64,000 bases of DNA from positions 682,001-746,000 of the forward strand of contig NZ_CP069526.1 of NCBI RefSeq assembly GCF_016889705.1, in the 5' to 3' direction. Shown here one piece after another: positions 7,931-42,119 of this stretch. The translations under genes were made by a program, and so were the position numbers. The stretch's first letter is position 1; each line of letters starts with the position of its first letter. The DNA is from Amycolatopsis sp. FDAARGOS 1241. GTDB taxonomy: Bacteria; Actinomycetota; Actinomycetes; Mycobacteriales; Pseudonocardiaceae. The notes beneath the pieces are model-generated. The model saw only the letters and a list, made by a program, of their open reading frames with translations. It was not told the DNA's origin and ran no database searches.

Positions 7931-8588
7931 CTGCCGGCCAGGCCTGAGCGGTGTGGAGGGGTGCGGGTGAGATCAACTTCCCCACTTGGTGCCCCATTTG
8001 GCCGCCTGACACCCGCACAGTGACACCATTCGACGATGTGCGCTGCACGTCCTTGTCCGGACTGCGGAAATTGCGCCGCGCGTCGAACTTGATTCGCTCG
8101 ATTCACCCGCATCTGGACCATGCCGTCGGGCCCACAGCCACTGCGGTTTGTTCCGCTGAGTGCCGATCCGGATCGGTGCGGGGCACCGAGTGATCCCTGC
8201 CGAGCTGTCGTCACAAGGCCGGCCGTCCGGCTGCCGTGACACGTACCCGCGACGAGCGTGCGCTGTCGTGGGCGACGGGTGTTTCCTGCAGGCGCGTGAT
8301 GGCGACCGTGCCGGGAACGGCGCCCGCCTTCACGGCGCGCGGATTGCGGCCGCCTTGGCCGCGCCGAGGGCTTCGGCGCGGTCGGGGCCGGTGGGGATGA
8401 GCGTTTCGTGGTCGCCGCTGACGAGGGCGATAGCGGCGCCCGCGGTGGCGACCGCGCCCGAACCCGTTTCCTGAGCGCGACCCCGGTCGAAGGGCGTCGG
8501 CCGCGCGGAGAGCGCGCCGGTCAGCCGGAATCGAGTCGGCGCGTTCGCCGGCTCGATCCGTGCTGACCGGTTTGCCGGTGCCGCGTCG
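7931..8588. other. Gene-poor stretch after the tRNA, possible integrase-tail remnant
   Basis: No complete gene is seen in these 658 bases. On the minus strand, 43 bases past the tRNA, a frame ends at 7973 with GCQAAKWGTKWGS. This looks like the Trp/Gly/Thr-rich tails of actinobacterial tyrosine integrases, whose 3' ends typically lie this close to a tRNA attachment site. No integrase catalytic motif (R..HxxR..Y) is present upstream. Around 8341-8475 the minus strand reads a coding-like fragment (AGAAIALVSGDHETLIPTG) without a start, again suggesting gene debris. Confidence 0.35.
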
Positions 8589-16065: not shown

Positions 16066-16123
16066 CCACGAACCGGTGCCCGGGCGGTTGTCGTGGCCGT
16101 CCGGGCCGCTGCAAAGGAGCACT

Positions 16124-16777
16124 GTGTCCCTTTTCCTGACCGTGGCGGACACGGGGGCGCGCCTGGAGATCGCGCCGAGCCGGATCGTCGTCGCGGGCTA
16201 CACCGCCAAGGACGAAGCCGCGGTGGAGCACCACATCGCCGAACTCGCGGCGATCGGCGTGCCGCGCCCGGCGACCGTGCCGGCCTACTACGTGCTCGAC
16301 GCGGACCTGCTGACGACCGCGCCGGTGATCGAGGTGAGCTCGGCGGCGACGTCCGGTGAAGTCGAGCCCGTGGTGATTCGCCACGACGGCCGCTACTACC
16401 TCGGCGTCGGCTCGGACCACACCGACCGCGACCTCGAGCGCACGGACATCGAGCTGTCCAAGGCCGCGTGCCCGAAACCGCTCGGTGAACAGGTCGTCGA
16501 GCTTTCCACTGTGGACTGGAACGACCTGGCCGCCGAGTCCCGTGTGGACGAGAAGCTGTACCAGCAGGGCAGCGTCGAGAGTTTGCGCCACCCCACCGAC
16601 ACGCTGAGCCGGATGCCCGGCGGTGTCGACGACGGTGGTGACCTCGTGCTCTACTGCGGGACGCTGGCGCTGCTCGGGGGCGAGTTCGGGTACGGCACCC
16701 GGTGGCGCCTCGACCTGCGGTTGCCCGGCGGACCGACACTGTCCCACGTGTACGAAACCCAGCTGAGGAGGGCCTGA
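16124..16777 (+). CDS. DUF2848 protein
   Basis: This 217-residue protein starts at GTG 16124, eight bases after AAAGGAG. Its DUF2848 features include VVAGYTAKDEAAVEHHIAEL near the N-terminus, ISVSSAATSGEVEP-type strands in the middle and a C-terminal sheet ending in HVYETQL. The family shares a fold with fumarylacetoacetate-hydrolase-like proteins and often sits beside aromatic or amide degradation genes. Its reaction is not established. The stop overlaps the ATG of the HpaB gene by one base, so it is tightly coupled to that monooxygenase and probably acts on its product. Confidence 0.8.
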   Translation: MSLFLTVADTGARLEIAPSRIVVAGYTAKDEAAVEHHIAELAAIGVPRPATVPAYYVLDADLLTTAPVIEVSSAATSGEVEPVVIRHDGRYYLGVGSDHTDRDLERTDIELSKAACPKPLGEQVVELSTVDWNDLAAESRVDEKLYQQGSVESLRHPTDTLSRMPGGVDDGGDLVLYCGTLALLGGEFGYGTRWRLDLRLPGGPTLSHVYETQLRRA

Positions 16778-18213: not shown

Positions 18214-18548
18214 GCAAGCCCGAGCACGAGTTCTTCCCCGTCACCGACGTCGAGTTCACCGTCTGCAAGGGCGACGACCCGAAGATCACCGAGCGCGTCC
18301 TCGCCGACGACGACGGGGTGGCCACGCGCATCCTGCGCTACGAACCGGGTGCCGACTCGACCCCGATGGGCGTGCAGGCGCACGACTTCTGGGAAGAGGT
18401 CTACATCCTGGAGGGTTCGTTCACCGACCTGACCCTGGGTGAGACCTTCACGAAGGGCATGTACGCGTGCCGTCCGCCGGGCATGCCGCACGGGCCTTGG
18501 CGCACCGACGAAGGTGTGCTCACCTTCGAGGTCCGCTACCGCGCATGA
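18210..18548 (+). CDS. Small cupin protein
   Basis: A 112-residue single-domain cupin starts at GTG 18210, overlapping the monooxygenase stop. Motif 1 region HDFWEEVYILEGSFTD and motif 2 region PPGMPHGPW provide His and Glu candidates for metal binding (the Glu pair in FWEEVY, and the His in MPHGPW). Such ChrR-like/anti-sigma-type cupins can be enzymes or small-molecule binders. Sandwiched with four-base overlaps between a monooxygenase and its reductase, it is more likely a pathway enzyme (decarboxylase or isomerase) than a regulator. No specific reaction can be assigned. Confidence 0.82.
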   Translation: MSKPEHEFFPVTDVEFTVCKGDDPKITERVLADDDGVATRILRYEPGADSTPMGVQAHDFWEEVYILEGSFTDLTLGETFTKGMYACRPPGMPHGPWRTDEGVLTFEVRYRA

Positions 18549-19084
18549 CCGGCATGCCGCCCGACTGCACGCCGGGCCCCGGCCCCGTCGACGCGGTGGT
18601 GATGCGGACCGCCATGGGTCGCTTCGCCACCGGCGTCGCCGTGGTCACCACCGCAACCGGCGACGTCCCGCACGGGATGACGGTGAACTCGCTGACCTCG
18701 GTGTCGCTGTCGCCGCCGCTGGTGCTCGTGTGCCTGACGACGGGCGCGCGCACCACCGAGGCCGTGGTCTCGGCGGGCCGCTTCGCGGTGAACGTGCTGT
18801 CCACGCGCCAGGAACAACTCGCCCTGCGCTTCGCTCGCCGCGGCGAGGACCACTTCTCGGGCCTGCCGGTGAAAACGGGCTCGCACGACGTGCCGGTCAT
18901 CCCGGACGCCCTGGTGCACCTCGAGTGTGCGGTCCACCGCGCCCTGCCCGCCGGCGACCACGAGGTCGTGATCGGCGAGGTCCTCAAGGTCTGCGCCCGC
19001 GACGGCGAACCACTGGGCTTCCTGGGCGGACGCTTCAGCGACGTGGTGGACCGCGGTCACGAGCCGGTGCCGTGGTTCTTCTAG
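18545..19084 (+). CDS. Flavin reductase of the two-component monooxygenase
   Basis: This 179-residue protein is of the HpaC/flavin-reductase-like FMN-binding split-barrel family. It has FATGVAVVTT, then GMTVNSLTSVSLSPPLVLVCL and GRFAVNVLS, in the standard order, and a C-terminal GRFSDV segment before GHEPVPWFF. It reduces FAD or FMN with NAD(P)H and hands it to the HpaB-type oxygenase encoded just upstream. The ATG at 18545 overlaps the cupin stop (ATGA). It is the last gene of the five-gene operon. The following 231 bases to the convergent ligase gene contain nothing I recognise. Confidence 0.92.
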   Translation: MTGMPPDCTPGPGPVDAVVMRTAMGRFATGVAVVTTATGDVPHGMTVNSLTSVSLSPPLVLVCLTTGARTTEAVVSAGRFAVNVLSTRQEQLALRFARRGEDHFSGLPVKTGSHDVPVIPDALVHLECAVHRALPAGDHEVVIGEVLKVCARDGEPLGFLGGRFSDVVDRGHEPVPWFF

Positions 19085-28201: not shown

Positions 28202-28873
28202 GTGGACGTCTACGAAGCGCTCTACACCACGCGGGTCATGCGGCGCATGAAACCCGATCCGATCTCGATGGAGAGCCAGTGCCGCATCCTCGACGCCGCG
28301 ATCCGCGCGCCCAACGGCGGCAACACGCAGCCGTGGCGGTTCGTGGTCGTCGACGACCCGGGGCTGAAGGCCAAGCTCGCGGACGTCTACGCGCGCTGCC
28401 GCGAGCGCGAGTACGCCGACATCGTGGCGGGCCGGCTCGGTGTGGTGAAGTACCACGACCGCGACGAATGGTGGGAAACCATGCGTTCGCAGATCAAGCG
28501 CTCCGGCGACTACTTCGGGGAGCACTTCGCGGAAACGCCGTTGCTGGTCTTCCTGTTCACCGCCGAAGCGCACTACGGCGCCAACGTGTTCCCGGCGGTG
28601 TGGAGCGCGATGCTCGCCGCGCGCGCCGAGGGCATCGGCGGGGTGCTGAGCACGTTGCTGCGCTTCGAAGAGTCCACGGTGTGCGAACTGCTGGGCGTGC
28701 CGGTGGACGAGGGCTGGAGCCTCGGCGCGATGCTGGCGTTCGGCTACCCGCTCGGCCGCTGGGGGATTGCGGCGAAGCGGCGCCCGGTGCACGAGGTGGC
28801 GCGGCGCAACGGGTGGGACGGCGCGTTCGGCGCCGAAGTCCCAGAACCGTTGTGGAGTCCCGACTTTTCGTAG
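28202..28873 (+). CDS. Nitroreductase-family FMN oxidoreductase
   Basis: This 223-residue protein has the nitroreductase fold: TTRVMRRMKPDP at the N-terminus with the FMN-phosphate-binding Arg residues, APNGGNTQPWRFVVV, and the C-terminal GYPLGRW before a basic tail. Family members reduce nitro groups, quinones or activated double bonds using NAD(P)H. It is regulated by the divergent TetR gene and lies 35 bp before an aromatic-acid-type transporter, so it may act on an imported aromatic compound. A nitro-aromatic substrate would fit a route to 3-hydroxyanthranilate but is not shown by sequence. Confidence 0.88.
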   Translation: MDVYEALYTTRVMRRMKPDPISMESQCRILDAAIRAPNGGNTQPWRFVVVDDPGLKAKLADVYARCREREYADIVAGRLGVVKYHDRDEWWETMRSQIKRSGDYFGEHFAETPLLVFLFTAEAHYGANVFPAVWSAMLAARAEGIGGVLSTLLRFEESTVCELLGVPVDEGWSLGAMLAFGYPLGRWGIAAKRRPVHEVARRNGWDGAFGAEVPEPLWSPDFS

Positions 28874-30845: not shown

Positions 30846-31385
30846 GTGGGGACACCACGCAGCACGTACGCGCCCACTGATCCGCACGCGCTCCGGTTCC
30901 GCAAGGCGCTGCGCCACTTCCCCAGCGGGGTGTCCGTGGTGACGGTCGTCGACGAGGACGGTGGGGTGCACGGGATGACCGCGAGCTCGTTCGCGTCCGT
31001 GTCGCTCGATCCGCCGCTGTGCGCGGTGAGCGTGAACAAACCCGGCCGCATGCACCAGCTGCTGCACGGCACCGACGGCCACTACGGCCTCAGCATCCTC
31101 GGCCAGGATCAGGGCACCGTCGCCGACTTCTACGCGCGCCAGCCGTGGAGCGTGGCGCTCGACGTGGACATGGACTGGCAGCACGGGTGCCCGACGGTCG
31201 CCGGCGCGCTCGCGTGGTTCGTGTGCCGCAAGTGGGCCGCCTACGACGGTGGTGACCACACGATCTTCGTCGGCGAATCCCTCGACTACGGGTCGACGCC
31301 GCGGGAGGACCTGCTGCCCCTGGTCTGGCACAAGTCGCAGTACCACGACCTCGGCGACGAACTCGCCCGGCCGGGCCGGAGCTAA
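30846..31385 (+). CDS. Flavin reductase-like FMN-binding protein
   Basis: The 179-residue protein starts at GTG 30846 after GAGGAGG. It is a split-barrel flavoprotein with FRKALRHFPSGVSVVTVVD, GMTASSFASVSLDPPLCAVSV and HYGLSILGQDQ, plus a C-terminal DHTIFVGESLDYG and LVWHKSQYH. Family members are reductase partners of two-component monooxygenases; 2-nitrobenzoate nitroreductase (NbaA) is also of this broad fold. It lies beside the LysR gene and the 3-hydroxyanthranilate operon, and shares a four-base overlap with the convergent LysR stop. It could supply FMNH2 to an oxygenase or act directly on a nitro-aromatic. Confidence 0.87.
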   Translation: MGTPRSTYAPTDPHALRFRKALRHFPSGVSVVTVVDEDGGVHGMTASSFASVSLDPPLCAVSVNKPGRMHQLLHGTDGHYGLSILGQDQGTVADFYARQPWSVALDVDMDWQHGCPTVAGALAWFVCRKWAAYDGGDHTIFVGESLDYGSTPREDLLPLVWHKSQYHDLGDELARPGRS

Positions 31386-32329
31386 CCGGGGCGAAGCCGC
31401 CGGTTCACCTCGCCGGCCTCGGCCACGAGCTTGTCAATGAGCGCGCTCGCGGACGGGGTCGGCGTGCGCGCCGCCGGCAGCGTCAGGCCGACGCTGTGGC
31501 CGATCGGCTCGAGCGACAGCGGCAGCCGGACGATGCCCGGGTCTTCTTCGGTGATCAGGCGCGGCAGAGCGGCCACCACGTCGGTGTCACGCAGCAGTTG
31601 GCGCACCGTCAGGAACGACGTCGCCTCGACGCGGTTCGCGGGCAGCCGCACGTCGTTGTCGTGGAACAGTTCCTCGAGCTCACGCCGCAGCGCCGTCTCC
31701 GGCCCGGGCAGGATCCACGGGTAGCCGGCCACTGTCGGGAGGTCCACGGTCTCCGCGCCGGCCAGCGGGTGGTCCGCGCGCACGACCAGGACCACCGACT
31801 CGTCGTAGAGCTTCCGCCGCAGGAACCCTTCGTCGGAGATCTGCGTGAGCCGGCCGACGATCAGGTCGAGCCGGCCCGCGGCGAGCTCCACGAGCAGCGA
31901 CTCCGGTGTGCCGTCGCGCACGGCCACGGTCAGGTTCGGGCGTTCGCCCTTCAGCGCGGCGATCGCCCGCGGCAGCAGCACGTTCGACCCGAACAGGTGG
32001 GTGCCGACGACCACCGTGCCGCGCTCGGCGCCCGCCAGCTCCACGACGTGCCGGGCCGCCTGGCGGGCTTGTGCCAGGATCGCCCGCGCGTGTTCGGTGA
32101 ACGCCTCGCCGTACACGGTCGGCGTCAGTCCCCGTGGGCCGCGCTCGAACAACTCGACCTCGAGGATCTCCTCCAGCTCACGCAGGCCGCGCGTGGCCAC
32201 CGGCTGCGTCACGTGCAGTTCGGCGGCGGCGCCGACGATGGTGCCGCGGCGCGAGATCGCGTCGAGCAGCACGAGGTGGCGGAACTTCATCCGGCCGTCG
32301 AGTAGCCGCGGGAGCTCGTGGGGTGCCAT
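31382..32329 (-). CDS. LysR-family regulator of the 3-hydroxyanthranilate operon
   Basis: A 315-residue LysR protein begins at ATG 32329; a GTG three bases earlier is possible. The N-terminal winged helix-turn-helix covers MKFRHLVLLDAISRRGTIVGAAAELHVTQPVATRGLRELE-type sequence (residues about 15-55). The effector domain begins near residue 95 with GTVVVGTHLFGSN. It belongs to the GbpR/PcaQ-like group with aromatic-acid effectors. The gene is divergent from the aldehyde dehydrogenase that starts the meta-cleavage operon, the usual arrangement for LysR control of both genes. Confidence 0.9.
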   Translation of the reverse strand: MAPHELPRLLDGRMKFRHLVLLDAISRRGTIVGAAAELHVTQPVATRGLRELEEILEVELFERGPRGLTPTVYGEAFTEHARAILAQARQAARHVVELAGAERGTVVVGTHLFGSNVLLPRAIAALKGERPNLTVAVRDGTPESLLVELAAGRLDLIVGRLTQISDEGFLRRKLYDESVVLVVRADHPLAGAETVDLPTVAGYPWILPGPETALRRELEELFHDNDVRLPANRVEATSFLTVRQLLRDTDVVAALPRLITEEDPGIVRLPLSLEPIGHSVGLTLPAARTPTPSASALIDKLVAEAGEVNRRLRPG

Positions 32330-32456
32330 CACTCAGCCTCCTGTCCCCGCACTATAGCCATTTGCGCATATCAACTTAAACCTTTGGCATTTGTCAGGCA
32401 TAGCTGGAGGTGGCGACCATGAGCACAGAGCGAATCGAGGGAGCGGGAAGGCGGAC
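32330..32456. promoter_or_regulatory. Divergent LysR/operon control region
   Basis: This 127-bp gap holds an AT-rich patch (32343-32400) unlike the surrounding sequence. It includes ATAGCCATTTGCGCATAT, an imperfect dyad with ATA/TAT ends and T-N11-A spacing, and AACCTTTGGCAT. These are candidate LysR-binding sites. The promoters cannot be fixed exactly by eye. Confidence 0.45.
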
Positions 32457-32460
32457 ATGA
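32419..32460 (+). CDS. 13-codon leader frame of the meta-cleavage operon
   Basis: A strong ribosome-binding site (GGAGG at 32406-32410) precedes an ATG at 32419. The frame encodes MSTERIEGAGRRT, and its TGA overlaps the ATG of the aldehyde dehydrogenase (ATGA). The dehydrogenase itself has only a weaker GGGAAGG site inside the leader. Translational coupling through this leader is likely. No attenuator hairpin or repeated rare codons are seen. Confidence 0.5.
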   Translation: MSTERIEGAGRRT

Positions 32461-33911
32461 CGGTGCTCAAGAGCTTCGCAGGCGGTCGGTTCACCGACAG
32501 CGGGGGCGACCTGTTCGACAAGGTCAGCCCCGTCGACGGGACGCTGGTCACCCGAGTGGAGGAAGCCGACCAGGGGGTGGTCGACCGCGCGGTGCGCGCC
32601 GCCCGCGCGGCGCTGGACGGCGCGTGGGGCCGGACCTCGGCCGCCGAGCGCGTGGTGGTGCTGCGCCGGATCGCCGACCGCATCGACGAGCGCTTCGACG
32701 ACCTGCTCGCCGCCGAGGTCGCCGACACCGGCAAGCCGCTCGACCTGGCCCGCCGGCTCGACGTGTCGCGCGCCGCCGCGAACTTCCGCGCCGCGGCCGA
32801 CACGATCGCCGCGGCCGGGCTCGACTCGTTCCTCACCGAAACCCCGGCCGGGCGCGCGCTGAACTACGCTCTGCGCAAGCCGCTCGGCGTGGTCGCGGTG
32901 ATCGTGCCGTGGAACCTGCCGCTGCTGCTGCTCACGTGGAAGGTCGCGCCGGCGCTGGCCGCGGGCAACGCCGTGGTGGTCAAGCCATCGGAGGAAACGC
33001 CCTCGAGCGCGACGCTGCTGGCCGAGATCATCACCGAAGCCGGCACGCCCGACGGCGCGTACAACGTGGTCCACGGCTTCGGCCCCGGCTCGGCCGGCGA
33101 GTTCCTCACGACGCACCCGGGCGTCGACGGCGTCACCTTCACCGGCGAATCACGCACCGGTTCGGCGATCATGCGGGCCGTCGCGCCGCGAGTGCTGCCC
33201 GTGTCGTTCGAGCTCGGCGGCAAGAACGCGGCCGTGGTGTTCGACGACGCCGACCTCGCCAAGACCGTCGACGGCCTCGCCCGTTCGACGTTCACCAACA
33301 CCGGCCAGATCTGCCTGTGCACCGAGCGGATCTACGTGCAGCGCGGCGTGTTCGACGAGGTCGCCGCCGGGCTCGCCGAGCGCGCCGACGCCCTGCGCTT
33401 CGGCCGCCCCGACGACCCCGAGACCACCACGGGCCCGCTGATCTCGCGCCGGCACCGGCAGAAAGTGCTGTCGTACTACGAACTCGCCGAGCAGGAGGGC
33501 GCGAAACTCCTCGCCGGCGGCGGGGTCCCGGACCTCGGCGAAGAGTTCCAAGGCGGTGCGTGGGTGCGCCCGGCGCTGTGGACGGGCCTCGACAACTCCC
33601 ACCGCACGCTGCGGGAGGAGATCTTCGGGCCGGTCGCGGCGCTCATGCCGTTCGACACCGAGGACGAGGCGATCCGGCTGGCCAACGACACCGACTACGG
33701 TCTCGCCGGCGCCGTGTGGACCACGAACCTCGACCGCGGCCACCGCGTCGCGGGCGCGCTGCGCGTGGGCATGTCGTGGGTCAACACGTGGTACCTGCGA
33801 GATCTGCGCTCACCCTTCGGCGGCAACGGGCTTTCCGGCATCGGCCGTGAGGGTGGAGTGCACTCGCTGCACTTCTACACGCAGCCGACGAACGTGTGCG
33901 TGGCCCTGTGA
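32457..33911 (+). CDS. 2-Aminomuconate/2-hydroxymuconate 6-semialdehyde dehydrogenase
   Basis: The 484-residue NAD-dependent aldehyde dehydrogenase has VIVPWNLPLLLLTWKVAPALAAGN-type sequence for coenzyme binding, FELGGKNAAVVF with the general-base Glu, and NTGQICLC with the nucleophilic Cys. The downstream genes for 3HAO, ACMSD and 2-aminomuconate deaminase show that the natural substrate is probably 2-aminomuconate 6-semialdehyde, giving 2-aminomuconate. The motif set is shared with 2-hydroxymuconic semialdehyde dehydrogenase (DmpC/XylG), so dual use is possible. It is the first main gene of the operon, and its stop overlaps the hydratase GTG. Confidence 0.9.
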   Translation: MTVLKSFAGGRFTDSGGDLFDKVSPVDGTLVTRVEEADQGVVDRAVRAARAALDGAWGRTSAAERVVVLRRIADRIDERFDDLLAAEVADTGKPLDLARRLDVSRAAANFRAAADTIAAAGLDSFLTETPAGRALNYALRKPLGVVAVIVPWNLPLLLLTWKVAPALAAGNAVVVKPSEETPSSATLLAEIITEAGTPDGAYNVVHGFGPGSAGEFLTTHPGVDGVTFTGESRTGSAIMRAVAPRVLPVSFELGGKNAAVVFDDADLAKTVDGLARSTFTNTGQICLCTERIYVQRGVFDEVAAGLAERADALRFGRPDDPETTTGPLISRRHRQKVLSYYELAEQEGAKLLAGGGVPDLGEEFQGGAWVRPALWTGLDNSHRTLREEIFGPVAALMPFDTEDEAIRLANDTDYGLAGAVWTTNLDRGHRVAGALRVGMSWVNTWYLRDLRSPFGGNGLSGIGREGGVHSLHFYTQPTNVCVAL

Positions 33912-34723
33912 ACGCCCGGGTCGACGCGGCCATCGACACCGCGATCGCGCGCCTGCACCGGGCCGAGCGTGACCGCACGCCCGTGCAGCCGGTGCGCGAC
34001 GTCCTCGGCGAGGACGACCTCGACGCCGCCTACGAGGTGCAGCGCCGGATCATCGAGACCAAGGTCGCGAGCGGGCGCCGGATCGTCGGCCGCAAGATCG
34101 GCCTGACCTCGGTTGCCGTGCAGCGCCAGCTCGGCGTCGACCGGCCCGATTTCGGGGTACTGCTCGACGACATGGTGTACGGCGACCGCGCCGACGTGCC
34201 GCTGGAGCGCTTCTTGCAGCCACGCGTCGAGGGCGAGGTCGCGTTCGTCCTCGGTGCCGACCTGCCCGGGAGCGCGACCGTGGTCGACGTCCTGCGCGCC
34301 ACGGACTTCGTGCTGCCGGCCCTGGAGATCGTCGATTCGCGCGTGGCCGGCTGGGACATCCGCATCACGGACACGGTCGCGGACAACGCCTCCAGTGGCG
34401 CGCTCGTGCTCGGCACCCGGCCGCGCAAGCTGTCCGAAGCAGACCTCGCCGGGCTGGGGCTGGTGCTTGAACACGGCGGTGAGCCCGTGTCGACGGGGGT
34501 TGGCGCCGCCTGCCTCGGCTCGCCCGCGGTCGCGGTCGCGTGGCTCGCCGGGGAGGTCGCGCGCCGCGGGGCGCCGCTGCGGGCCGGGGAAGTGGTCCTG
34601 GCCGGTACGTGGGGGCCGATGGTGCCGGTCACGGGGCCCGGGGGCTACCTCGCGCGGTTCGAAGACATCGGAGAGGTCCGGGTGAACTTCACCGGCGGAC
34701 CGGACGGAGGGAAGCGCGCATGA
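33908..34723 (+). CDS. 2-Oxopent-4-enoate hydratase
   Basis: The 271-residue protein belongs to the MhpD/fumarylacetoacetate-hydrolase-like hydratase family. It adds water to 2-hydroxypenta-2,4-dienoate to form 4-hydroxy-2-oxovalerate. [23 protein letters not shown], the metal-binding [10 protein letters not shown] (Glu-x-Glu pattern) and [21 protein letters not shown] match the family. GTG 33908 overlaps the dehydrogenase stop and the gene's own stop overlaps the next ATG. A paralogue with decarboxylase-type sequence is encoded at 36674, which supports distinct hydratase and decarboxylase roles. Confidence 0.9.
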
Positions 34724-35655
34724 GCACCCCGGTGGCGATCATCGGGTCGGGCAACATCGGCACCGATCTGATGTTCAAGGTCAAACGGCTCTCGAGCGAG
34801 CTCGAAGTCGTCGCCATGGTCGGCATCGACCCGGCCTCCGACGGGCTCGCGCGGGCGCGCCGGCTCGGGGTCGCGACGTCGCACGAAGGCGTCGGCGGGC
34901 TCGTCGGGCTGCCCGGGTTCGCGGACATCCGCCTGGTTTTCGACGCGACGTCGGCCGGCGCGCACCGCCACAACAACGAAGTCCTGAGCGCCTGCGGCAA
35001 GCAGCTCGTGGACCTCACGCCGGCGGCGATCGGGCCGTACGTGGTGCCGACCGTGAACCTCGAAGAGCACCTCGGCGCGCCGAACGTCAACATGGTCACC
35101 TGCGGCGGTCAGGCCACCACGCCGATCGTCGCCGCGGTGTCTTCGGTGACCCCGGTGGCCTACGCGGAGATCGTCGCGACGATCTCGGCGCGCTCGGCCG
35201 GCCCGGGCACCCGGGCGAACATCGACGAGTTCACCGAGACCACCGCGCGGGCGCTCGAGACGGTCGGCGGCGCCGGGCGCGGCAAGGCGATCATCGTGCT
35301 CAACCCCGCCGACCCGCCGATCACCATGCGCGACACGGTGTTCTGCTTGGTGGAGGAGTCCGAAGTGGACGAATCCGCCGTGAGCGCGTCGGTCGAAGAG
35401 ATGGTCGCGCGGGTCCAGGACTACGTGCCGGGCTACCGGCTCAAGCAGCGCGTGCAGTTCGACCGCGTCGACGAGCCGTTCCTGCCTTCGCTCGGGCGCG
35501 CGTTCCGCGGCGTGAAGATCGGGGTGTTCCTGGAGGTCTCCGGCGCCGGTCACTACCTCCCGGAATACGCCGGGAACCTCGACATCATGACCTCCGCCGC
35601 GCTGCGGACCGCCGAACGCCTCGTGCGCGTGCCGACCGAAGGAGCCGTGCGATGA
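34720..35655 (+). CDS. Acetaldehyde dehydrogenase (acylating)
   Basis: This 311-residue enzyme turns acetaldehyde, NAD+ and CoA into acetyl-CoA and normally forms a complex with the aldolase encoded next. The N-terminal Rossmann motif is [12 protein letters not shown] (residues 6-17), the catalytic Cys is in [12 protein letters not shown], and the C-terminal [22 protein letters not shown] segment is diagnostic of the DmpF/MhpF family. The ATG at 34720 overlaps the hydratase stop, and its TGA overlaps the aldolase ATG. Such fixed gene order reflects substrate channelling between the two enzymes. Confidence 0.96.
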
Positions 35656-36677
35656 CCGGCAAGCTCTACGTCCAGGACGTGACCCTGCGGGACGGCATGC
35701 ACGCCATCGGCCACCGCTACTCCGTCGACCAGGTCGCCACGATCGCGGCCGCGCTCGACAAGGCAGGCGTCGCCGCCATCGAGGTCGCCCACGGCGACGG
35801 GCTGGCCGGCTCCAGCGTGAACTACGGCCACGGCGCCGCCACCGATGCCGCGTGGATCGCCGCGGCGGCCGAGGTGGTCCAGCGCGCCAAGCTGACCACG
35901 CTGCTGTTGCCGGGTGTGGGCACGATCGACGACCTGCGGGCCGCGCGGGATCTCGGTGTCTCGAGTGTGCGGATCGCGACGCATTGCACCGAGGCGGACA
36001 TCGCGATCCAGCACATCGGCTGGGCGCGCGAGAACGGCATGGACGTGGCCGGGTTCTTGATGCTGAGTCACCTGAATTCGCCCGCAGGCCTGGCGGCGCA
36101 GGCGAAGATCATGGAACAGGCGGGCGCGCACTGCGTGTACGTCACTGATTCGGGTGGCCGTCTGACGATGCGCGAGGTCGCCGCCCGGATCGATGCCTAC
36201 CGCGAGGTCCTCGCCCCCGGCACGCAGATCGGCATCCACGCGCACGAGAACCTCTCGTTGTCCGTGGCCAACAGTGTCACCGCCGTCGAGCACGGCGCGT
36301 ACCGGGTCGACGCGTCGCTCGCCGGGCAGGGTGCGGGTGCGGGGAACACGCCGATCGAGGCGTTCATCGCCGTCGCCGATCTGCTCGCGTGGGACCACGG
36401 CTGCGACCTGTTCGCGTTGCAGGACGCGGCCGAAGACCTCGTCCGTCCACTTCAGACCCGACCGGTGCGCGTGGACCGAGAAACGCTGACCCTCGGCTAC
36501 GCCGGGGTCTACTCCAGCTTCCTGCTGCACGCCGAACGCGCCGCGGCCCGCTACGGGCTCGACGTGCGGGCGATCCTGCTGGAAGCCGGGCTGCGCGGGC
36601 TCGTCGGCGGCCAGGAGGACATGCTCGTCGACGTCGCGCTCGACCTGGTGGCGGCTCGCGAGGCGGCGCCGGCATGA
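35652..36677 (+). CDS. 4-Hydroxy-2-oxovalerate aldolase
   Basis: The 341-residue aldolase of the HMGL-like TIM-barrel family splits 4-hydroxy-2-oxovalerate into pyruvate and acetaldehyde. The [13 protein letters not shown] motif carries the metal-binding Asp and catalytic Arg/His. [16 protein letters not shown] provides the two metal-binding His, and [14 protein letters not shown] is conserved. The C-terminal helical domain that contacts the acylating dehydrogenase is present. The gene is coupled on both sides by ATGA overlaps. Confidence 0.96.
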
Positions 36678-37432
36678 TCGAGGACTTCGCCACGCGGCTC
36701 GACGAAGCCGCCACCACCCGCACGCCGTGCGCTCAGCTGTCGGCCGGCCACGACCTGTCGCTCGACGACGCCTACGCGGTGCAGCGTGAACTCGCCGGCC
36801 GCCGGCTGGCCCGCGGCGAACGCGAGTACGGCGTGAAGCTGGGGTTCACCAGCAAGACCAAGGCCGCGCAGATGGGCGTCTCCGACGTGATCATCGGCAG
36901 GCTCACCTCCGGCATGGTGCTCGCAGACGGCGACGAGCTGGACCTCGGTGGGTTCCTCCACCCGCGGTGTGAGCCCGAGGTCGCGTTCCGGCTGGGCGAG
37001 GACACCGGCCACGGACCGGTGGTCGAGGCCGTCGCACCCGCGGTCGAGGTGATCGACTCGCGCTACCGCGACTTCAAGTTCTCCCTCGCCGACGTCGTCG
37101 CCGACAACACCTCGGCCGCTGCCGTGGTGCTCGGGCCGTGGCGGTCACCCGCCGCTGGGCTCGACAACCGCGGCGTGCTGCTCGAGGTGGACGGTCGCCT
37201 CGCCTGCGCGGGCTCCACCGCGGCGATCCTCGGCGATCCGCTGCGCGCGATCCCCGCTGCCGTCCGCCTGGCTCGGCGGTACGGGATCCCGCTGCCCGCG
37301 GGGACCGTACTGCTGGCCGGCGCCGCGACCCCCGCCGTCGCACTGCGGGCCGGCACGCACGTGAGCGCCACCGTGTCCGGCCTCGGCCGGGCGCGTTTCT
37401 CGGTGACACCCGGCCAAGGAGGACAGCGATGA
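36674..37432 (+). CDS. 4-Oxalocrotonate (2-oxohex-3-enedioate) decarboxylase
   Basis: A 252-residue paralogue of the hydratase. [16 protein letters not shown], the [10 protein letters not shown] metal motif and [24 protein letters not shown] follow the pattern of DmpH/XylI-type decarboxylases, which have the R-Y-x-x-F variant rather than the hydratase's R-V-x-x-W. It would convert 2-oxohex-3-enedioate, formed by deamination of 2-aminomuconate, into 2-oxopent-4-enoate. In other meta operons the decarboxylase and hydratase form a complex. The ATG overlaps the aldolase stop and the TGA overlaps the RidA-type ATG. Confidence 0.88.
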
Positions 37433-37851
37433 GCCGAGCCAAGACCGTCGAAGGGAAAGCGACGCCGCGCGGCCGTTTCCCGCACGTGAAGCGCGCCGGG
37501 GACTTCGTGTTCGTCTCCGGCACCAGCAGCCGCCGGCCCGACAACACGTTCGCCGGCGCCGAGGCCGACGAGTTCGGCACGACGACACTGGACATCCGCG
37601 CGCAGACCGCCGCCGTGCTCGAGAACATCACCGACATCCTCGCCGCAGTCGGCGCGAGCCTCGCCGACGTTGTGCAGGTCACCAGCTACCTCGTGAACAT
37701 GAACGACTTCGGCGGCTACAACGAGGTCTACGGCCGCTATTTCGACGAAACCGGCCCGGCGCGCACGACCGTCGCCGTGCACCAGCTGCCGCACCCGCAC
37801 CTGCTCATCGAGATCCAGGCCGTCGCCTACGCGCCGAGTGAAGGGAACTGA
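37429..37851 (+). CDS. 2-Aminomuconate deaminase (RidA family)
   Basis: This 140-residue RidA/YjgF-like protein has [27 protein letters not shown] at the N-terminus and the family Arg/Glu end motif near [23 protein letters not shown], where Arg binds the carboxylate. AmnD/NbaF enzymes of this family hydrolyse 2-aminomuconate to 4-oxalocrotonate and ammonia. The gene context, between decarboxylase and 3HAO genes, fixes the role better than the fold does. It is coupled to the decarboxylase by ATGA and separated from 3HAO by five bases. Confidence 0.9.
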
Positions 37852-37856
37852 TCACC

Positions 37857-38387
37857 GTGACCGACATCAACCCCGTCTTCTCGTTCTCGAAGTGGGTCGA
37901 ACAACACGAGCACCTGCTCAAGCCGCCGGTGAACAACAAGCAGATGTGGGAGCGCACGGGCGATTTCATCGTCCAGGTCGTCGGCGGGCCCAACCAGCGC
38001 ACCGATTTCCACGTGGATCCCTACGAGGAGTGGTTCTACCAGGTCAAGGGCAACATGCACGTCAACGTCATGACCGACGAGGGGCAGCAGACCGTCCACC
38101 TCCGCGAGGGCGACATGTGGCTGCTGCCGGGCAACGTGCCGCATTCGCCGCAGCGACCCGAGGCCGGCTCGATCGGCATCGTGATCGAGCGCATCCGCGA
38201 AGAGGGCACGCGCGAGAAGTTCCAGTGGTACTGCCTCAACTGCGAGTCGCTGGTGCACGAGGTCGAACTGCAGGTGCGCGACATCGTGAGCGATCTGCCA
38301 CCGGTCTTCGAACAGTTCTACGCGGACGAGTCGGTGCGCAAGTGCGCGAACTGCGGCACGGTCCACCCGGGGAAGTCCGCCCGATGA
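37857..38387 (+). CDS. 3-Hydroxyanthranilate 3,4-dioxygenase
   Basis: The 176-residue cupin dioxygenase opens the ring of 3-hydroxyanthranilate to 2-amino-3-carboxymuconate 6-semialdehyde. RTDFHVDPYEEWFYQVKGNM holds the catalytic Fe ligands (His and Glu), and LLPGNVPHSPQRP supplies the third ligand and the substrate-binding Arg region. The C-terminal rubredoxin-like iron site, present in bacterial enzymes, is intact as YCLNC and KCANCG. Translation starts at GTG 37857. Its stop overlaps the ACMSD ATG, so the two successive steps are made together. Confidence 0.96.
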   Translation: MTDINPVFSFSKWVEQHEHLLKPPVNNKQMWERTGDFIVQVVGGPNQRTDFHVDPYEEWFYQVKGNMHVNVMTDEGQQTVHLREGDMWLLPGNVPHSPQRPEAGSIGIVIERIREEGTREKFQWYCLNCESLVHEVELQVRDIVSDLPPVFEQFYADESVRKCANCGTVHPGKSAR

Positions 38388-39382
38388 CCCCGATCATCGA
38401 CGTCCACACCCACTACGTCCCCCAAGGCTGGCCGCAGCTGTCCGGAGACGGCACGGCGCCGTGGCTGCGCGTGGAGAACGAGCGCGAGGCCACGATCATG
38501 GTCGGTTCGCGCGAGTTCCGCCGCATCCTCGCCAACTGCTGGGACGCGGACTTCCGGCTGCGCGAGATGGGCGAGGACGGGGTCGACGTGCAGGTCGTGT
38601 CGCCGACTCCGGTGTTCTTCTCCTACGACCGCACCCCCGCCGAGGGGGTGCGGATCGCGAAGGTCTTCAACGACCTGGCACTGGAGATCTGCGCACCGGC
38701 GGGCGGCCGGCTCGTGCCGTTCTGCCAGGTGCCGCTGCAGGACCCGGACCTGGCGTGCGAGGAGCTGGACCGCTGCCTGGCCGCGGGACACCGCGGGGTC
38801 GAGATCGGCAACCACGTGGGCGACCGCGACCTCGACGACGCCGGCATCGTCACGTTCCTGCAGCACTGCGCCGCGCGCGGGGTGCCGGTGTTCGTGCACC
38901 CGTGGGACATGCCGACCTCGCCGCGCCTGGACCGCTGGATGGCGCAGTGGCTCACCGGCATGCCCGCCGAAACGCACCTGTCCGTGCTGGCGCTGATCCT
39001 CGGCGGCGTGTTCGACCGGGTGCCGGAATCGCTCAAGATTTGCTTCGCACACGGCGGTGGCTCCTTCGCGTTCTGGCTCGGCCGCCTCGAAAACGCCTGG
39101 CACGAGCGGCACGACGTGATCGGCGGCTCGGCGAAACCGCCGTCGAGCTATGTCGGGCGCTTCGCCGTGGACACCGTGGTGTTCGAGCCGTCGGCCTTGC
39201 GGCTGCTCGTGGACGTGCTCGGGGTCGAGAACGTCCTGCTCGGCAGTGACTACCCGTACCCGCTCGGGGAACGGCCGGTCGGGCAGGTCGTGCACAAGGC
39301 GCAGTTCCTGAGCGACAGCGACCGCGCGCTGCTGCTCGGCGGCAACGCGGCGAAGTTCCTTTCGCTGGAGGACGTGGGATGA
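38384..39382 (+). CDS. 2-Amino-3-carboxymuconate-6-semialdehyde decarboxylase (ACMSD)
   Basis: The 332-residue amidohydrolase-superfamily enzyme removes CO2 from the unstable 3HAO product, preventing its cyclisation to quinolinate. Zn ligands are visible as DVHTHYVP (HxH), VHPWDM (His), FAHGGGSF (His) and LLGSDYPYP (Asp). NVLLGSDYP and AKFLSL end the barrel as in NbaD. Start and stop overlap the genes on either side by four bases. Its presence shows that the operon is catabolic and does not serve NAD synthesis. Confidence 0.96.
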   Translation: MTPIIDVHTHYVPQGWPQLSGDGTAPWLRVENEREATIMVGSREFRRILANCWDADFRLREMGEDGVDVQVVSPTPVFFSYDRTPAEGVRIAKVFNDLALEICAPAGGRLVPFCQVPLQDPDLACEELDRCLAAGHRGVEIGNHVGDRDLDDAGIVTFLQHCAARGVPVFVHPWDMPTSPRLDRWMAQWLTGMPAETHLSVLALILGGVFDRVPESLKICFAHGGGSFAFWLGRLENAWHERHDVIGGSAKPPSSYVGRFAVDTVVFEPSALRLLVDVLGVENVLLGSDYPYPLGERPVGQVVHKAQFLSDSDRALLLGGNAAKFLSLEDVG

Positions 39383-40179
39383 GCGCGTACAACTCCTACC
39401 TCAAGGCGGACGTGCTGCACTCGCTGCAGGAACCGGTCACCGACACCGAGGGCGAGCGGTCGTTCCTCGTGGTGTGCCAGGTGCAGGAGCTGTACTTCTG
39501 CCTGATCGCCACCGAGCTGCGCTTCGCCGCGCAGCACCTGCGGGCCGGGGAGACCCCGGGTGCCGCGGCGGCGCTGCGGCGGGCGGCGGACCACTTCGTC
39601 GGCCTCAACGCGTCGTGGAAGTCGCTGGAGTGGATGACGGTCGGCGACTTCCTGCCGATCAAGGCCGGGCTCGGGTCGACGCACGGCAAGTCGTCGTCGC
39701 TGCAGTCGTGGAAGTACCGGGAGCTGGTGTTCCTGCTCGGCATCCGGCCGCCCGAGCTCGCCGAGCCCGTGTCGTCGATGCCCGACGAACACTCCTCGCT
39801 GCTGACCACGCTGCGGGAACCGAGCGTCTACGACGAGATCCTGGCGTTGCTGGGCCGGCGTGGACTGTCCATCCCGGACTCCGTGCGCGACCGCGACCCG
39901 ACGGCGCAGCACGAACCGCACCCCGACGTGGCGCGCGCCTGGACGACCGTGTTCTACGGCGGTGATCCCGGGCTCGTCGACCTGCGGTTCTGCGGCGAAG
40001 CCCTGATGCACGTGGCGGAGGGTTACGCCGAGTACAAGCACCTGCACCTCGTCGCCACGCGCCGGTCCTTCGGCCACCGCCCGGGCTACTACGGCACGAG
40101 CGGGCTCGGCTGGCTCGCCGAAACCGTCACCGAGGTGCCGTTCCCGGAGCTGTGGTCGATGACGCCCGAACACCCCTGA
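39379..40179 (+). CDS. Divergent tryptophan-2,3-dioxygenase-fold heme protein
   Basis: A 266-residue member of the TDO superfamily, shorter than usual TDO (about 280-300). Family marks are YNSYLKADVLHSLQEP, LGSTHGKSSSLQSWKYRELVFLLG (the Arg that binds the substrate carboxylate in TDO), EYKHLHLVATRRSFGHRPG (proximal heme His region), GTSGLGWL and FPELW. Where TDO has HQ(T)xEL with the active-site His, this protein reads VCQVQELYF, so that His appears replaced. The kynurenine enzymes that would link tryptophan to 3-hydroxyanthranilate (formamidase, 3-monooxygenase, kynureninase) are not in this window. The substrate may not be tryptophan. Confidence 0.85.
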   Translation: MSAYNSYLKADVLHSLQEPVTDTEGERSFLVVCQVQELYFCLIATELRFAAQHLRAGETPGAAAALRRAADHFVGLNASWKSLEWMTVGDFLPIKAGLGSTHGKSSSLQSWKYRELVFLLGIRPPELAEPVSSMPDEHSSLLTTLREPSVYDEILALLGRRGLSIPDSVRDRDPTAQHEPHPDVARAWTTVFYGGDPGLVDLRFCGEALMHVAEGYAEYKHLHLVATRRSFGHRPGYYGTSGLGWLAETVTEVPFPELWSMTPEHP

Positions 40180-40193
40180 AGTGGAGAAAAGCC

Positions 40194-40778
40194 TTGTCGG
40201 ACCTGACGATCCTGGCGCTGTCCGGAAGCCTGCGCAAGGACTCCCTCAACACCCGGCTGCTCTCGTCGGTGGCGCGGATCGCGCCGCCCGAGCTGACCTT
40301 CGACGTGTTCGGTGAGCTGGCGGAGATCCCGCTGTTCAACGAGGACGCCGAGCACCCGTCCCCGCCCGCCGTCGCCGACCTGCGGCGCCGGATCCGCGCG
40401 GCCGACGGCGTGCTCATCGCCACCCCCGAGTACAACGCCGCCATGCCCGGCGTGCTGAAGAACGCGCTGGATTGGCTTTCTCGCCCCGCGGCCGAGGGGC
40501 CGGCGCTGACGCGCAAACCCGTCGCGATCATCGGCGCTTCGCAGGGCCCGCTGGGCACGATCCGCGCGCAGCTGAACCTGCGGCAGGTGCTGCACAAGAT
40601 GAACGCCACCGTGGTGGGCCAGCCCGAGTTCGTGCTCCCCCACGCGCACCAGGCCCTCGGTGAGGGTGAGCTGCCGGCGGGTTCCCCGTCGCTGCCGATT
40701 CTCACCGGCGTGCTGCAGGGCCTGGTCGAACTGATCGAACACGACCGCGCGGTCGCCTCGGTGCTCGCCGCGCGCTAG
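40194..40778 (+). CDS. NAD(P)H-dependent FMN reductase
   Basis: The 194-residue flavodoxin-fold protein shows GSLRKDSLNTRLL for FMN phosphate binding and TPEYNAAMPGVLKNALDWLSRP, the signature of the SsuE/chromate-reductase family. It starts at TTG 40194, eight bases after GGAG. Members reduce FMN, quinones or azo/nitro compounds. In this operon it may reduce the heme or flavin of a partner oxygenase or protect against quinones. It is the only enzyme of the operon not part of the known lower pathway besides the TDO-like protein. Confidence 0.9.
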   Translation: MSDLTILALSGSLRKDSLNTRLLSSVARIAPPELTFDVFGELAEIPLFNEDAEHPSPPAVADLRRRIRAADGVLIATPEYNAAMPGVLKNALDWLSRPAAEGPALTRKPVAIIGASQGPLGTIRAQLNLRQVLHKMNATVVGQPEFVLPHAHQALGEGELPAGSPSLPILTGVLQGLVELIEHDRAVASVLAAR

Positions 40779-40817
40779 CTCGCCCTTCCCTCCCCATCGA
40801 ACAACGGAGTTCGCCCC

Positions 40818-42119
40818 ATGAGTCAATTGTCCCCACCTGCCCGGCAGATGAGAAAGAACGTGCTCGTCAGCGTCGCGGGCTCGGCCATCGAGTGGTACGA
40901 CTTCTTCATCTACGCGTCGGCTTCGGCGCTCGTGCTGAACAAGCTCTTCTTCCCGTCCGTGAACTCCGTCGCAGGGACGCTGCTGGCGTTCAGCACGTTC
41001 GCGGTCGGCTTCCTGATCCGGCCCGTGGGGGCGGCCGTGTTCGGGCACTTCGGCGACAAGTTCGGCCGCAAACCGACGTTGGTCACCGCCATGATGATCA
41101 TGGGTGTGGCGACCACCGCGATCGGCCTGCTGCCGTCGTACGCCACGCTCGGCGTCGCCGCGCCGATCCTGCTCGTGGTGCTGCGACTGATCCAGGGCCT
41201 GGCGCTCGGCGGCCAGTGGGGTGGCGCGGTACTGCTCGTGACCGAGAGCGCGCCCGACGGAAAACGCGGGTTCTACGGCAGCTTCGCGCAGCTCGGCGTA
41301 CCGATCGCGCTGGTCTTCTCCAACGTGCTGTTCCTCGTGCTGTCCGCCGCGGTGTCGCCGGCTGCGTTCCTCTCGTGGGGCTGGCGGATCCCGTTCCTGT
41401 TCAGCATCGTGCTGATCGGCATCGGGCTCTACGCGCAGTCGCGGGCCTCGGAAACCCGCTCGGCCGCCCGGGCGCCGCGGCGGGCGCCGCTGCTGGAACT
41501 CCTGCGCTCGCACCCGAAGGAGATCCTGCTCTCCGCCGGCGCTACGGTGATCAACGGTGGCGCGTACTACCTGCTCACCGTGTACATCCTGGCCTACGCC
41601 ACGCAGGCGCTGCACGTGTCGCGCGGCGTAATCCTCACGGGCGTGCTGATCTCCGCCGTCGCGTCCGGGCTGGCGATCCCCGCGGCCGCCGCGTTGTCCG
41701 ACCGCATCGGGCGCCGGCGGGTGTTCCTCACGGGCGCGCTGCTGCTGGCGGTGTGGGGTTTCCCGATGTTCTGGCTCGTCAACACGGGTTCCGCCGTGCT
41801 GATCGCGGCGGCGCTGGTGGTCGCGCAGATCATCTTCAGCCTCACCTACGGCCCGTGCCCGGCGCTGTTCTCCGAGATGTTCGGCGCGGACGTCCGCTAC
41901 TCCGGGGTGTCCGTGGGATACCAGATCGGCGCGGTCGCCGGAGGTGCGCTGGCGCCGATCATCGCGACGTCGCTGTATGCGTCTTTCCACACGGCCAACG
42001 CGATCGCGCTGTACCTCGCGCTGATGGCCGCGGTGTCGTTCGGTTCGGTGTTCCTGGTGACGGAGTCAGTCCGGCGCAAGAGGACGGTCGCGGAACCCGT
42101 GCCGGTCGAGGTCGACTGA
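40818..42119 (+). CDS. MFS transporter, metabolite:H+ symporter (MHS) type
   Basis: A 433-residue transporter of about 12 membrane segments. AIEWYDFFIYASASALV in TM1 and FGDKFGRKPTL in the loop after TM2 are typical of the MHS/ShiA/ProP-like family, which takes up organic acids such as shikimate, ketoglutarate or aromatic acids. It ends the operon 39 bp after the FMN reductase with its own GGAGTTCG ribosome-binding site. A strong hairpin follows directly at its stop. It probably imports the operon's substrate. Confidence 0.9.
   Translation: MSQLSPPARQMRKNVLVSVAGSAIEWYDFFIYASASALVLNKLFFPSVNSVAGTLLAFSTFAVGFLIRPVGAAVFGHFGDKFGRKPTLVTAMMIMGVATTAIGLLPSYATLGVAAPILLVVLRLIQGLALGGQWGGAVLLVTESAPDGKRGFYGSFAQLGVPIALVFSNVLFLVLSAAVSPAAFLSWGWRIPFLFSIVLIGIGLYAQSRASETRSAARAPRRAPLLELLRSHPKEILLSAGATVINGGAYYLLTVYILAYATQALHVSRGVILTGVLISAVASGLAIPAAAALSDRIGRRRVFLTGALLLAVWGFPMFWLVNTGSAVLIAAALVVAQIIFSLTYGPCPALFSEMFGADVRYSGVSVGYQIGAVAGGALAPIIATSLYASFHTANAIALYLALMAAVSFGSVFLVTESVRRKRTVAEPVPVEVD

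Follow-up and report, generated by a model that had tools for sequence, protein, structure and literature searches.

The stretch analysed here (the window) comprises 64,000 nt from the soil-type actinobacterium Amycolatopsis sp. FDAARGOS 1241 (GCF_016889705.1, NZ_CP069526.1, positions 682,001 to 746,000, forward strand). A plus-strand operon at 32457-42119 combines eight lower-pathway genes of 3-hydroxyanthranilate (3HAA) degradation with three others, which encode a tryptophan 2,3-dioxygenase (TDO)-fold protein, an FMN reductase and an MFS transporter. The genes of the operon and the two upstream of it are:

30930..31385, +, flavin reductase (PF01613), HpaC/StyB-like; an alternative longer start at 30744 is possible
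31382..32332, -, LysR regulator
32457..33911, +, 2-aminomuconate/2-hydroxymuconate semialdehyde dehydrogenase (AMSDH-like); TIGR03216, 761 bits versus a cut-off of 693
33908..34723, +, 2-oxopent-4-enoate hydratase-like, FAA hydrolase fold; family match below the equivalog cut-off
34720..35655, +, acetaldehyde dehydrogenase (acylating); profile score above the cut-off
35652..36677, +, 4-hydroxy-2-oxovalerate aldolase; profile score above the cut-off
36674..37432, +, 4-oxalocrotonate decarboxylase-like (4-OD); family match below the equivalog cut-off
37429..37851, +, RidA-family protein, candidate 2-aminomuconate deaminase by family and position
37857..38387, +, 3-hydroxyanthranilate 3,4-dioxygenase (3HAO); NF009763, 272 bits versus a cut-off of 220; PF06052
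38384..39382, +, ACMSD-like amidohydrolase; PF04909, without an NCBIfam family match
39379..40179, +, K-type TDO-superfamily protein; PF03301, 102 bits; TIGR03036, 197.5 of 390.7 bits
40194..40778, +, NAD(P)H-dependent FMN reductase (FMN_red); PF03358
40818..42119, +, MFS transporter

At the level of sequence, the gene set for 3HAA meta-cleavage is complete (3HAO, ACMSD, AMSDH, deaminase, 4-OD, hydratase, aldolase and acetaldehyde dehydrogenase), with the hydratase, 4-OD, deaminase and ACMSD assigned by family and position rather than by equivalog. Genes overlap by four bases at 7 of the 10 operon junctions, while the remaining three are spaced by 5, 14 and 39 bases. These results bear out the preliminary description of an eight-gene lower route coupled mostly by four-base overlaps, and also its placing of the TDO-fold and FMN reductase genes in the same operon: both lie on the same strand, the former overlapping the ACMSD-like gene by four bases and the latter following after 14. 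Since G402 and G362, two further genomes of the genus, have an identical gene order, the arrangement is not due to chance. A promoter scan covering the sigma-70-like type alone returned no sites.

Kynureninase and kynurenine 3-monooxygenase (KMO) are both missing at the window locus, which is not a kynurenine operon. Complete actinobacterial kynurenine operons (AsnC, TDO, kynureninase, KMO and lower genes) share its lower genes, and their TDOs are homologous to the window protein (30-46% across the loci tabulated); the window differs in the two missing enzymes, the added FMN reductase and the loss of the Trp clamp from its TDO-fold protein. The earlier claim that the upper kynurenine steps are absent thus holds for the operon but not for the genome, in which a second TDO (C1:1953900; 278 bits on TIGR03036) adjoins a kynureninase-like gene scoring far below its family cut-off, and a kynureninase above its cut-off lies at C1:1263202. 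KMO was undetected in this genome (best match 30% identity, E 5.6e-14, versus E 2.7e-235 in the positive control, G028). We rejected the missing kynurenine genes as an unusual trait in themselves: KMO is lacking in 12 of 23 comparison 3HAO loci, a chosen sample that overstates the order-wide share because genomes of family f15 mostly have a TDO match near 3HAO. The order sample holds 65 genomes with 3HAO, and besides the window's own genome 19 neighbourhoods were read, from 15 of the 16 genomes outside f15 and 4 of the 48 within it. In several KMO-less loci the LysR gene is of the type found in the window and the MFS gene is related to the window's, and within the genus there are further 3HAO operons devoid of both KMO and a TDO-like gene. 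The unusual feature is the TDO-fold protein.

With its TDO fold and proximal His (His223), this protein belongs to the TDO/heme-dependent aromatic oxygenase superfamily, and the conserved ligand suggests that it binds heme. Its score lies below the cut-off of the TDO equivalog (TIGR03036), a weak test alone because the genome's other TDO also falls short. The TDO signature of Arg117 and Thr/Ser254 in a GTGGS-type loop is replaced by Lys95 and Tyr237 in GYYGT, His55 by Cys33, and a loop is longer by four residues; the signature positions follow Xanthomonas numbering. The protein belongs to a clade, the K-type, marked by Lys in place of the carboxylate-binding Arg, by GYYGT or a similar sequence in place of GTGGS, and by four additional residues in a neighbouring loop. 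Among 98 aligned rows, which count the window protein twice (as P0001 and as itself), all 43 with Arg117 combine Ser/Thr254 with a short loop, and those with Lys117 have Tyr, His or Phe at 254 (51/52) and a 12-residue loop (51/52); P0095, in which an FMN reductase carries a TDO-like tail, was left out. Tabulated kynurenine-operon TDOs retain the Arg and G[ST]GG[ST]; the carboxylate Arg and GTGGS loop are also given as TDO features in parts of PMC11904535 and PMC12312684. In a tree that omits a Nocardia fragment, the K-, L- and R-types each fall on one side of a branch (bootstrap 100), K and L group together (100/100), and a well-supported branch sets the window protein apart from the kynurenine-type TDOs. 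The remodelled loops are the least certain part of the AF2 model (mean pLDDT 61 and 58 for blocks 101-110 and 231-240).

These altered Trp-clamping parts suggest that the K-type protein may make 3HAA from a simpler aromatic amine. Alternatively, it may still be a dioxygenase, of altered specificity, acting on tryptophan or a substituted or shortened indole, and a Lys at this position is by itself compatible with a tryptophan-like substrate, since R118K in the TDO relative MarE lowers affinity only about fivefold, according to part of PMC11904535. We nevertheless consider this distinctly unlikely: the protein differs from the tabulated kynurenine-operon TDOs at the carboxylate Arg, in the GTGGS loop and in the loop next to it, no kynureninase or KMO occurs in the five K-type 3HAO loci (window included), and a further TDO-family gene is already present in 9/9 K/L-type genomes searched. 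Formation of 3HAA from tryptophan in an unusual way, as once suggested for this locus, is disfavoured.

The K-type gene is rare, occurring in 3 of 80 genomes of the genus, and a phylum-wide search (396 genomes, E 1e-68) recovered it in the window's genome (G000) only; no relatives of the protein were found in viral contigs. An FMN reductase adjoins the gene in 7/8 K-type loci including the window, the eighth being a broken Nocardia copy (L018) with no FMN reductase match alongside. FMN reductase is likewise found in all eight 3HAO loci with a K-type or DUF4863 gene and in none of the remaining 23 (L138, a cut copy of L143, was left out). 3HAO was present in each of the six intact-K-type genomes searched, unlinked in one (Kibdelosporangium, G348), and G353, with a broken copy only, has none; no KMO-level match appeared in the four such intact genomes searched for it (G000, G348, G349 and G350). 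Pedococcus (L012), G362 (L131, L158) and G402 (L157) have a flavin reductase homologue next to LysR or the TDO-like gene, and in Kibdelosporangium (L010) and Streptomyces (L011) the region up to 10 kb from the K-type gene showed none. Other neighbours are more widespread: MFS homologues occur at K-type loci (L011, L012, L128, L129 and L131) and in several 3HAO operons without a TDO-like gene, LysR homologues also accompany such operons (e.g., L082-L084, 76-77%), and an ACMSD-like homologue lies beside 3HAO in most actinobacterial loci listed.

We tentatively propose that the LysR, flavin reductase, K-type, FMN reductase and MFS genes form an alternative entry module for 3HAA meta-cleavage, in which a heme enzyme would hydroxylate ortho to an aryl amine, most likely converting anthranilate to 3HAA with the reductases as electron source. 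The K-type protein would retain a His-ligated heme and the TDO aromatic pocket but would no longer hold an alpha-amino acid, Lys95 (for Arg117) receiving a ring carboxylate. Its most likely reaction would be an O2-dependent insertion of hydroxyl at anthranilate C3, and the two extra electrons that monooxygenation takes relative to dioxygenation could come from the FMN and flavin reductases, directly or as H2O2. MarE offers a precedent, as part of PMC12312684 describes monooxygenation by this enzyme as favoured with an electron donor; it too has a TDO fold and a rewritten GTGGS loop, but it acts on beta-methyl-tryptophan and keeps His55 and Arg118, neither of which the K-type protein keeps. The reaction itself, anthranilate to 3HAA followed by meta-cleavage, is described in part of PMC4539516 for Geobacillus thermodenitrificans NG80-2, with an FAD-dependent hydroxylase rather than the heme enzyme proposed here. 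Anthranilate could in principle be made in the KMO-less window genome, since TDO and kynureninase are encoded elsewhere, or could enter through the MFS carrier; 3HAA would then be cleaved, decarboxylated and degraded to pyruvate and acetyl-CoA. The preliminary idea of an entry reaction via the TDO-fold and FMN reductase genes is thus supported and sharpened by the separate branch, the changed Trp clamp and the co-travelling FMN reductase, with the activity predicted from sequence, and its suggestion of another aminoaromatic as source fits anthranilate. The residue pattern of the aligned rows, the co-occurrence of intact K-type genes with 3HAO, the further TDO-family genes and the missing KMO-level matches in the K-type genomes searched also speak for the proposal. 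Against it stand the rarity of the K-type gene, the 3HAO operons of the genus that do without it, the K-type loci with no flavin reductase nearby (L010, L011) or no FMN reductase (the broken L018), the low model confidence in the remodelled loops and the generic nature of the FMN reductase's best plasmid matches.

Anthranilate 3-hydroxylation could instead fall to an HpaB-type flavin monooxygenase 14 kb upstream (16777-18213). The Geobacillus hydroxylase is, we presume, of the HpaB type, and the HpaB cluster directly adjoins the 3HAA operon in G402 and G362 (L157, L158). However, orthologues (at least 72%) occur in just 13 of 80 genomes of the genus, the 3HAO-bearing G069, G090 and G097 have only 32-38% relatives, and among solved structures the closest are chlorophenol and 4-hydroxyphenylacetate monooxygenases. 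At 6/6 other loci fetched, HpaB is accompanied by a separate flavin reductase, with 3HAA genes missing from the vicinity; on this and its patchy co-occurrence with 3HAO we rejected it as entry enzyme, a role we consider very improbable.

It is also conceivable that 3HAA simply comes from outside, because other 3HAO operons of the genus lack both KMO and a TDO-like gene. Imported 3HAA would then be the growth substrate, perhaps as in operons without an upper gene, and the TDO-like/FMN reductase pair would act on another compound. The KMO-less comparison loci, several with a like LysR and related MFS, are consistent with such import, but the tight coupling of the pair to the ACMSD-like gene and the retention of both pair and 3HAO in Kibdelosporangium, despite no linkage, make it unlikely.

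The L-type proteins, the sister clade of the K-type, mostly sit in mnp-like (m-nitrophenol) clusters. Leu occupies the Arg117 position in 8/8 loci, and the presumed mnp substrate, 3-nitrophenol, has no carboxylate, which favours the role proposed for Lys95; an MnpA-like nitroreductase shares the locus in 7/8. These clusters (MnpA, C, D, E and F) resemble the window operon in their TDO-fold gene, in a flavodoxin-fold reductase in several loci, and in a product that is an ortho-hydroxylated aryl amine, as proposed for the window: aminohydroquinone and 3HAA alike have OH ortho to NH2. They differ in having Leu for Lys and a VOC-type dioxygenase for ring cleavage, and 3HAO, unlike in the window, was not found in the two mnp-like genomes searched (G351, G352). 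The L-type gene need not be a mutase, since the mnp pathway already has one, MnpB, encoded on another contig in CNP-8 according to part of PMC5604080, the main text of which does not contain the word tryptophan. A full-text literature search found neither a TDO-fold anthranilate hydroxylase nor a TDO gene in mnp clusters; most subscription papers fell outside it, so this is no proof of absence.

The main rival to anthranilate hydroxylation, in our view an unlikely one, has 2-hydroxylaminobenzoate formed by a module reductase and then converted to 3HAA by the K-type protein, which would act as mutase in the place of NbaB (DUF4863). The nba/onb operons (NbaA/B; OnbA-J) of 2-nitrobenzoate catabolism share the window's lower pathway, but their mutase slot holds DUF4863 where the window has the TDO-fold protein, and their flavin reductase is non-orthologous. 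In Cupriavidus pauculus, DUF4863 and an NAD(P)H oxidoreductase directly follow ACMSD, just as the TDO-like and FMN reductase genes do in the window; this order agrees with onbFCAR1EHJIGDBX3 (given in part of PMC5817917), and next to its entry enzyme the cluster likewise encodes a LysR, an MFS and an FMN-reductase-family protein. DUF4863, NAD(P)H oxidoreductase and flavin reductase occur together in 4/5 DUF4863 regions read (one of the four has the first two annotated as a single frame); an Arthrobacter region, the fifth, has DUF4863 and a nitroreductase without 3HAO. The nitroreductase of the L-type loci also fits this reading, although the existing mutase MnpB argues against it. Moreover, two rhizobial DUF4863 clusters are not full nba operons because their stretches contain no ACMSD, and a Bamberger-type rearrangement proceeds without O2 or added electrons; we know of no heme mutase that performs one.

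Nitrobenzoate entry, raised in the preliminary description, is possible by analogy of gene slots, but not via the genes then cited. The flavin reductase at 30930-31385 was rejected as NbaA, and the label NbaA-like is unsupported (best 22% identity, E 4e-5, against the flavin reductases of four DUF4863 clusters), and the nearby nitroreductase (28202-28873) is absent beside all other 3HAO loci fetched (tblastn, E 1e-30). At E 1e-5 the window contains no match to an NbaA-type nitroreductase or DUF4863 mutase, and is thus not an nba/onb locus; two DUF4863-nitroreductase pairs elsewhere in the genome could serve other nitrobenzoates. The FMN reductase was rejected as a specific nba marker, its likeness being at family level and its best plasmid matches generic family members. 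Hydroxylase and mutase cannot be told apart by gene context.

Part of PMC12312684 gives tryptophan, tyrosine and metabolites of the two as substrates of the heme-dependent aromatic oxygenases. The K- and L-types could plausibly, if still provisionally, represent a new catabolic branch of this superfamily, producing ortho-aminophenols (3HAA; aminohydroquinone) from simple aryl amines or hydroxylamines, with the Trp-carboxylate clamp tuned (Lys or Leu) to the presence of a ring carboxyl. If so, this branch for simple aromatic amines would widen the superfamily, fill a gap at the start of the 3HAA pathway of KMO-less bacteria, and assign a function to a so far unexplained gene of mnp-like clusters.

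Eleven genes occupy the plus strand from 32457 to 42119 of the window, which comes from a 9.8-Mb genome (G000). Eight encode enzymes of the lower pathway that degrades 3-hydroxyanthranilate (3HAA): AMSDH, hydratase, acetaldehyde dehydrogenase, aldolase, oxalocrotonate decarboxylase, RidA-type deaminase, 3HAA 3,4-dioxygenase (3HAO), and ACMSD, four of them assigned by family and position without an equivalog model. With all eight present and four-base overlaps at seven of the ten junctions (the remaining three are +5, +14, and +39 bases), the complete, overlapping lower route of the preliminary description is confirmed. Genes nine to eleven encode a TDO-like protein (PF03301; closest named relatives in Amycolatopsis, 86-88%), an FMN reductase, and an MFS transporter. 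A LysR gene diverges from the operon, with a flavin reductase gene (PF01613) on its far side, and a simple promoter scan returned zero sigma-70-like sites. The window also contains the following cluster:

15343-19084: HpaB-type monooxygenase gene clustered with alpha/beta hydrolase, DUF2848, cupin, and flavin reductase genes

This cluster adjoins the 3HAA operon in genomes G402 and G362; no 3HAA genes lie near it in six further genomes from this genus.

The reported absence of the upper kynurenine steps stands for kynurenine 3-monooxygenase (KMO) but not for the genome as a whole. A further TDO lies at C1:1953900, flanked by a PaaX-like regulator and by a kynureninase-like gene scoring far under the kynureninase cut-off, and a kynureninase above its cut-off is found at C1:1263202. 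KMO was not found in G000 using that of another actinobacterial operon as query (best match 30% identity, E 5.6e-14; positive control G028, E 2.7e-235). Since TDO and kynureninase are present while KMO was not found, tryptophan could in principle reach anthranilate, yet not 3HAA by the usual route. PF03301 fragments at C1:1765949-1766439 (L004/L005), one with two internal stop codons, represent a decayed TDO-family gene.

A 3HAA operon without kynurenine genes is not odd in itself. 3HAO is present in 65/348 genomes of the order; besides the window, 19 neighborhoods were examined (15 of 16 others outside family f15 and four of 48 within it), and four added loci (L132 and plasmids L139-L141) brought the comparison set to 23. 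KMO and kynureninase occur together in 11 of these, and 12 show no KMO inside the fetched stretch, although the true share is lower because locus choice favored rare cases. In G069, G090, and G097, three species of this genus, the lower genes are accompanied only by LysR and MFS; the complete lower set was visible in L082 and not in L083 or L084. Elsewhere, a 3HAO operon in G215 (L086 1005-4183) includes a 687-aa kynureninase-like protein and a head gene that looks IDO-type by its motif. In G250 (L087 12013-15908), LLM flavin monooxygenase-like and hydrolase-like genes (labels by eye) lie directly upstream in the 3HAO operon, possibly as another entry module. G402 has a second, partial 3HAO-like match (C1:423545-423886; 54%, E 3.5e-41) besides its full operon.

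The residue at the carboxylate-binding Arg117 of TDO appears to differentiate three groups. In a maximum-likelihood tree of 57 proteins, Lys-types (25, K-type), Leu-types (7, L-type), and Arg-types (25) were each set apart from the rest by a single branch (bootstrap 100), and Lys- and Leu-types were joined at 100/100; these two are apparently sister clades, on a tree rooted by midpoint only and with long branches flagged by the program at the canonical TDOs. A further TDO-family gene was present in 9/9 K/L-type genomes searched, so the K-type gene supplements such a gene rather than replacing it. In the six of these genomes other than G351, G352, and G362, five of the further proteins were tabulated as Arg-type (L006 of G000; L133, L134, L136, L137), and that of G402 shares 92% identity with G000's own TDO. 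The K-type protein itself is probably no longer a tryptophan dioxygenase. Some Arg-type TDOs (including L080, L081, L092, L094, L096, and L099) have Ser or Thr at the distal His55; several sit in complete kynurenine operons, and that of G028 is the sole PF03301 match there.

We read K-type loci in the window, Kibdelosporangium (L010), Streptomyces (L011), Pedococcus (L012), L128, L129, and L131, plus a broken Nocardia copy (L018); gene calls in fetched loci came from a simple codon-score script, which missed at least one gene (the HpaB-cluster flavin reductase of L157, recovered by tblastn). An FMN reductase gene stands beside the K-type gene in all seven loci, six of which also have MFS, and none stands beside the broken Nocardia copy. 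Flavin reductase occurs in 4/6 K-type genomes (G000, G350, G402, G362), with none seen within 10 kb of the K-type gene in L010 and L011. Besides its full operon, G362 has a second locus (L131) with LysR, flavin reductase, K-type, FMN reductase, and MFS genes in that order, which suggests that the five form one unit; its TDO-like and FMN reductase copies (7307-8321) are broken, and the MFS gene after them looks intact. 3HAO was found in 6/6 genomes with an intact K-type gene (in Kibdelosporangium, on a different contig from the K-type/FMN reductase pair) and not in Nocardia G353, with only the broken copy.

Comparison with 2-nitrobenzoate operons further informs the role of this module. In Cupriavidus pauculus, the order is MFS, RidA, 3HAO, flavin reductase, LysR, porin, AMSDH, hydratase, dehydrogenase, aldolase, decarboxylase, ACMSD, DUF4863 (which we take to be PF16155), and NAD(P)H oxidoreductase. 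Porin excepted, this matches onbFCAR1EHJIGDBX3 of Cupriavidus ST-14, with A as nitroreductase and B as mutase (PMC5817917); DUF4863 thus takes the mutase position, and PF16155 is named as homologous to the 2-nitrobenzoate-pathway mutase in another study (PMC6449761). Where C. pauculus has DUF4863 and the oxidoreductase after ACMSD, the window has the TDO-like and FMN reductase genes, a placement that might suit a putative mutase, though we consider this role unlikely for the K-type protein. Polaromonas JS666, Sinorhizobium mexicanum, and Rhizobium bangladeshense have DUF4863, such an oxidoreductase, and flavin reductase together (ACMSD was not seen in the fetched stretches of the latter two); in Arthrobacter, DUF4863 is accompanied by nitroreductase only. 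FMN reductases of the window's family occur in 8/8 3HAO loci with a K-type or DUF4863 gene and 0/23 without, related loci whose counts carry no probability, and this pattern ties the enzyme to the entry step rather than to 3HAA as such. The window's FMN reductase is not especially close to the nba ones (39-42%, versus 43-49% for generic family members), and the flavin reductase once called NbaA-like is not orthologous to nba flavin reductases (22% at best). G000 also carries two DUF4863 and nitroreductase pairs (L155 9367-10621, L156 8132-9459), presumably resembling pnbAB (4-nitrobenzoate); another nitroreductase near the L155 pair shares 61% identity with window 28202-28873.

Typing identified Leu-type genes in eight loci (L013, L014, L015, L130, L142, L144, L145, L146), with an MnpA-like nitroreductase in seven and an amidase-family gene in all eight. 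One stretch of L142 contains wrbA, ring-cleavage dioxygenase, nitroreductase, LysR, Fe-alcohol dehydrogenase, amidase, TDO-like, and GST genes; except for wrbA and the TDO-like gene, its content equals that of the m-nitrophenol (mnp) cluster in Cupriavidus CNP-8, so it may be called mnp-like by gene content. In the accessible portion of the CNP-8 description, no TDO-like gene is named in the cluster and the mutase MnpB is encoded on another contig (PMC5604080). In G402, an actinobacterial Leu-type gene (L130 7241-11474) is followed by amidase and a ring-cleavage dioxygenase with 43% identity to that of L142.

The presumed product in both clades is an amine with an ortho hydroxyl (3HAA; aminohydroquinone in mnp), which, together with the Lys/Leu pattern, favors an arylamine ortho-hydroxylase. 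Lys occurs with a ring carboxyl and Leu without one, a pattern that fits a shared binding mode using the former carboxylate clamp, where Lys95 would act. TDO chemistry proceeds without outside electrons, while monooxygenation requires them, as argued for the TDO relative MarE (PMC12312684); this requirement would account for the reductases in the module, from which the electrons may be supplied. We therefore propose, tentatively, that the K-type protein is a putative arylamine ortho-hydroxylase that may convert anthranilate to 3HAA.
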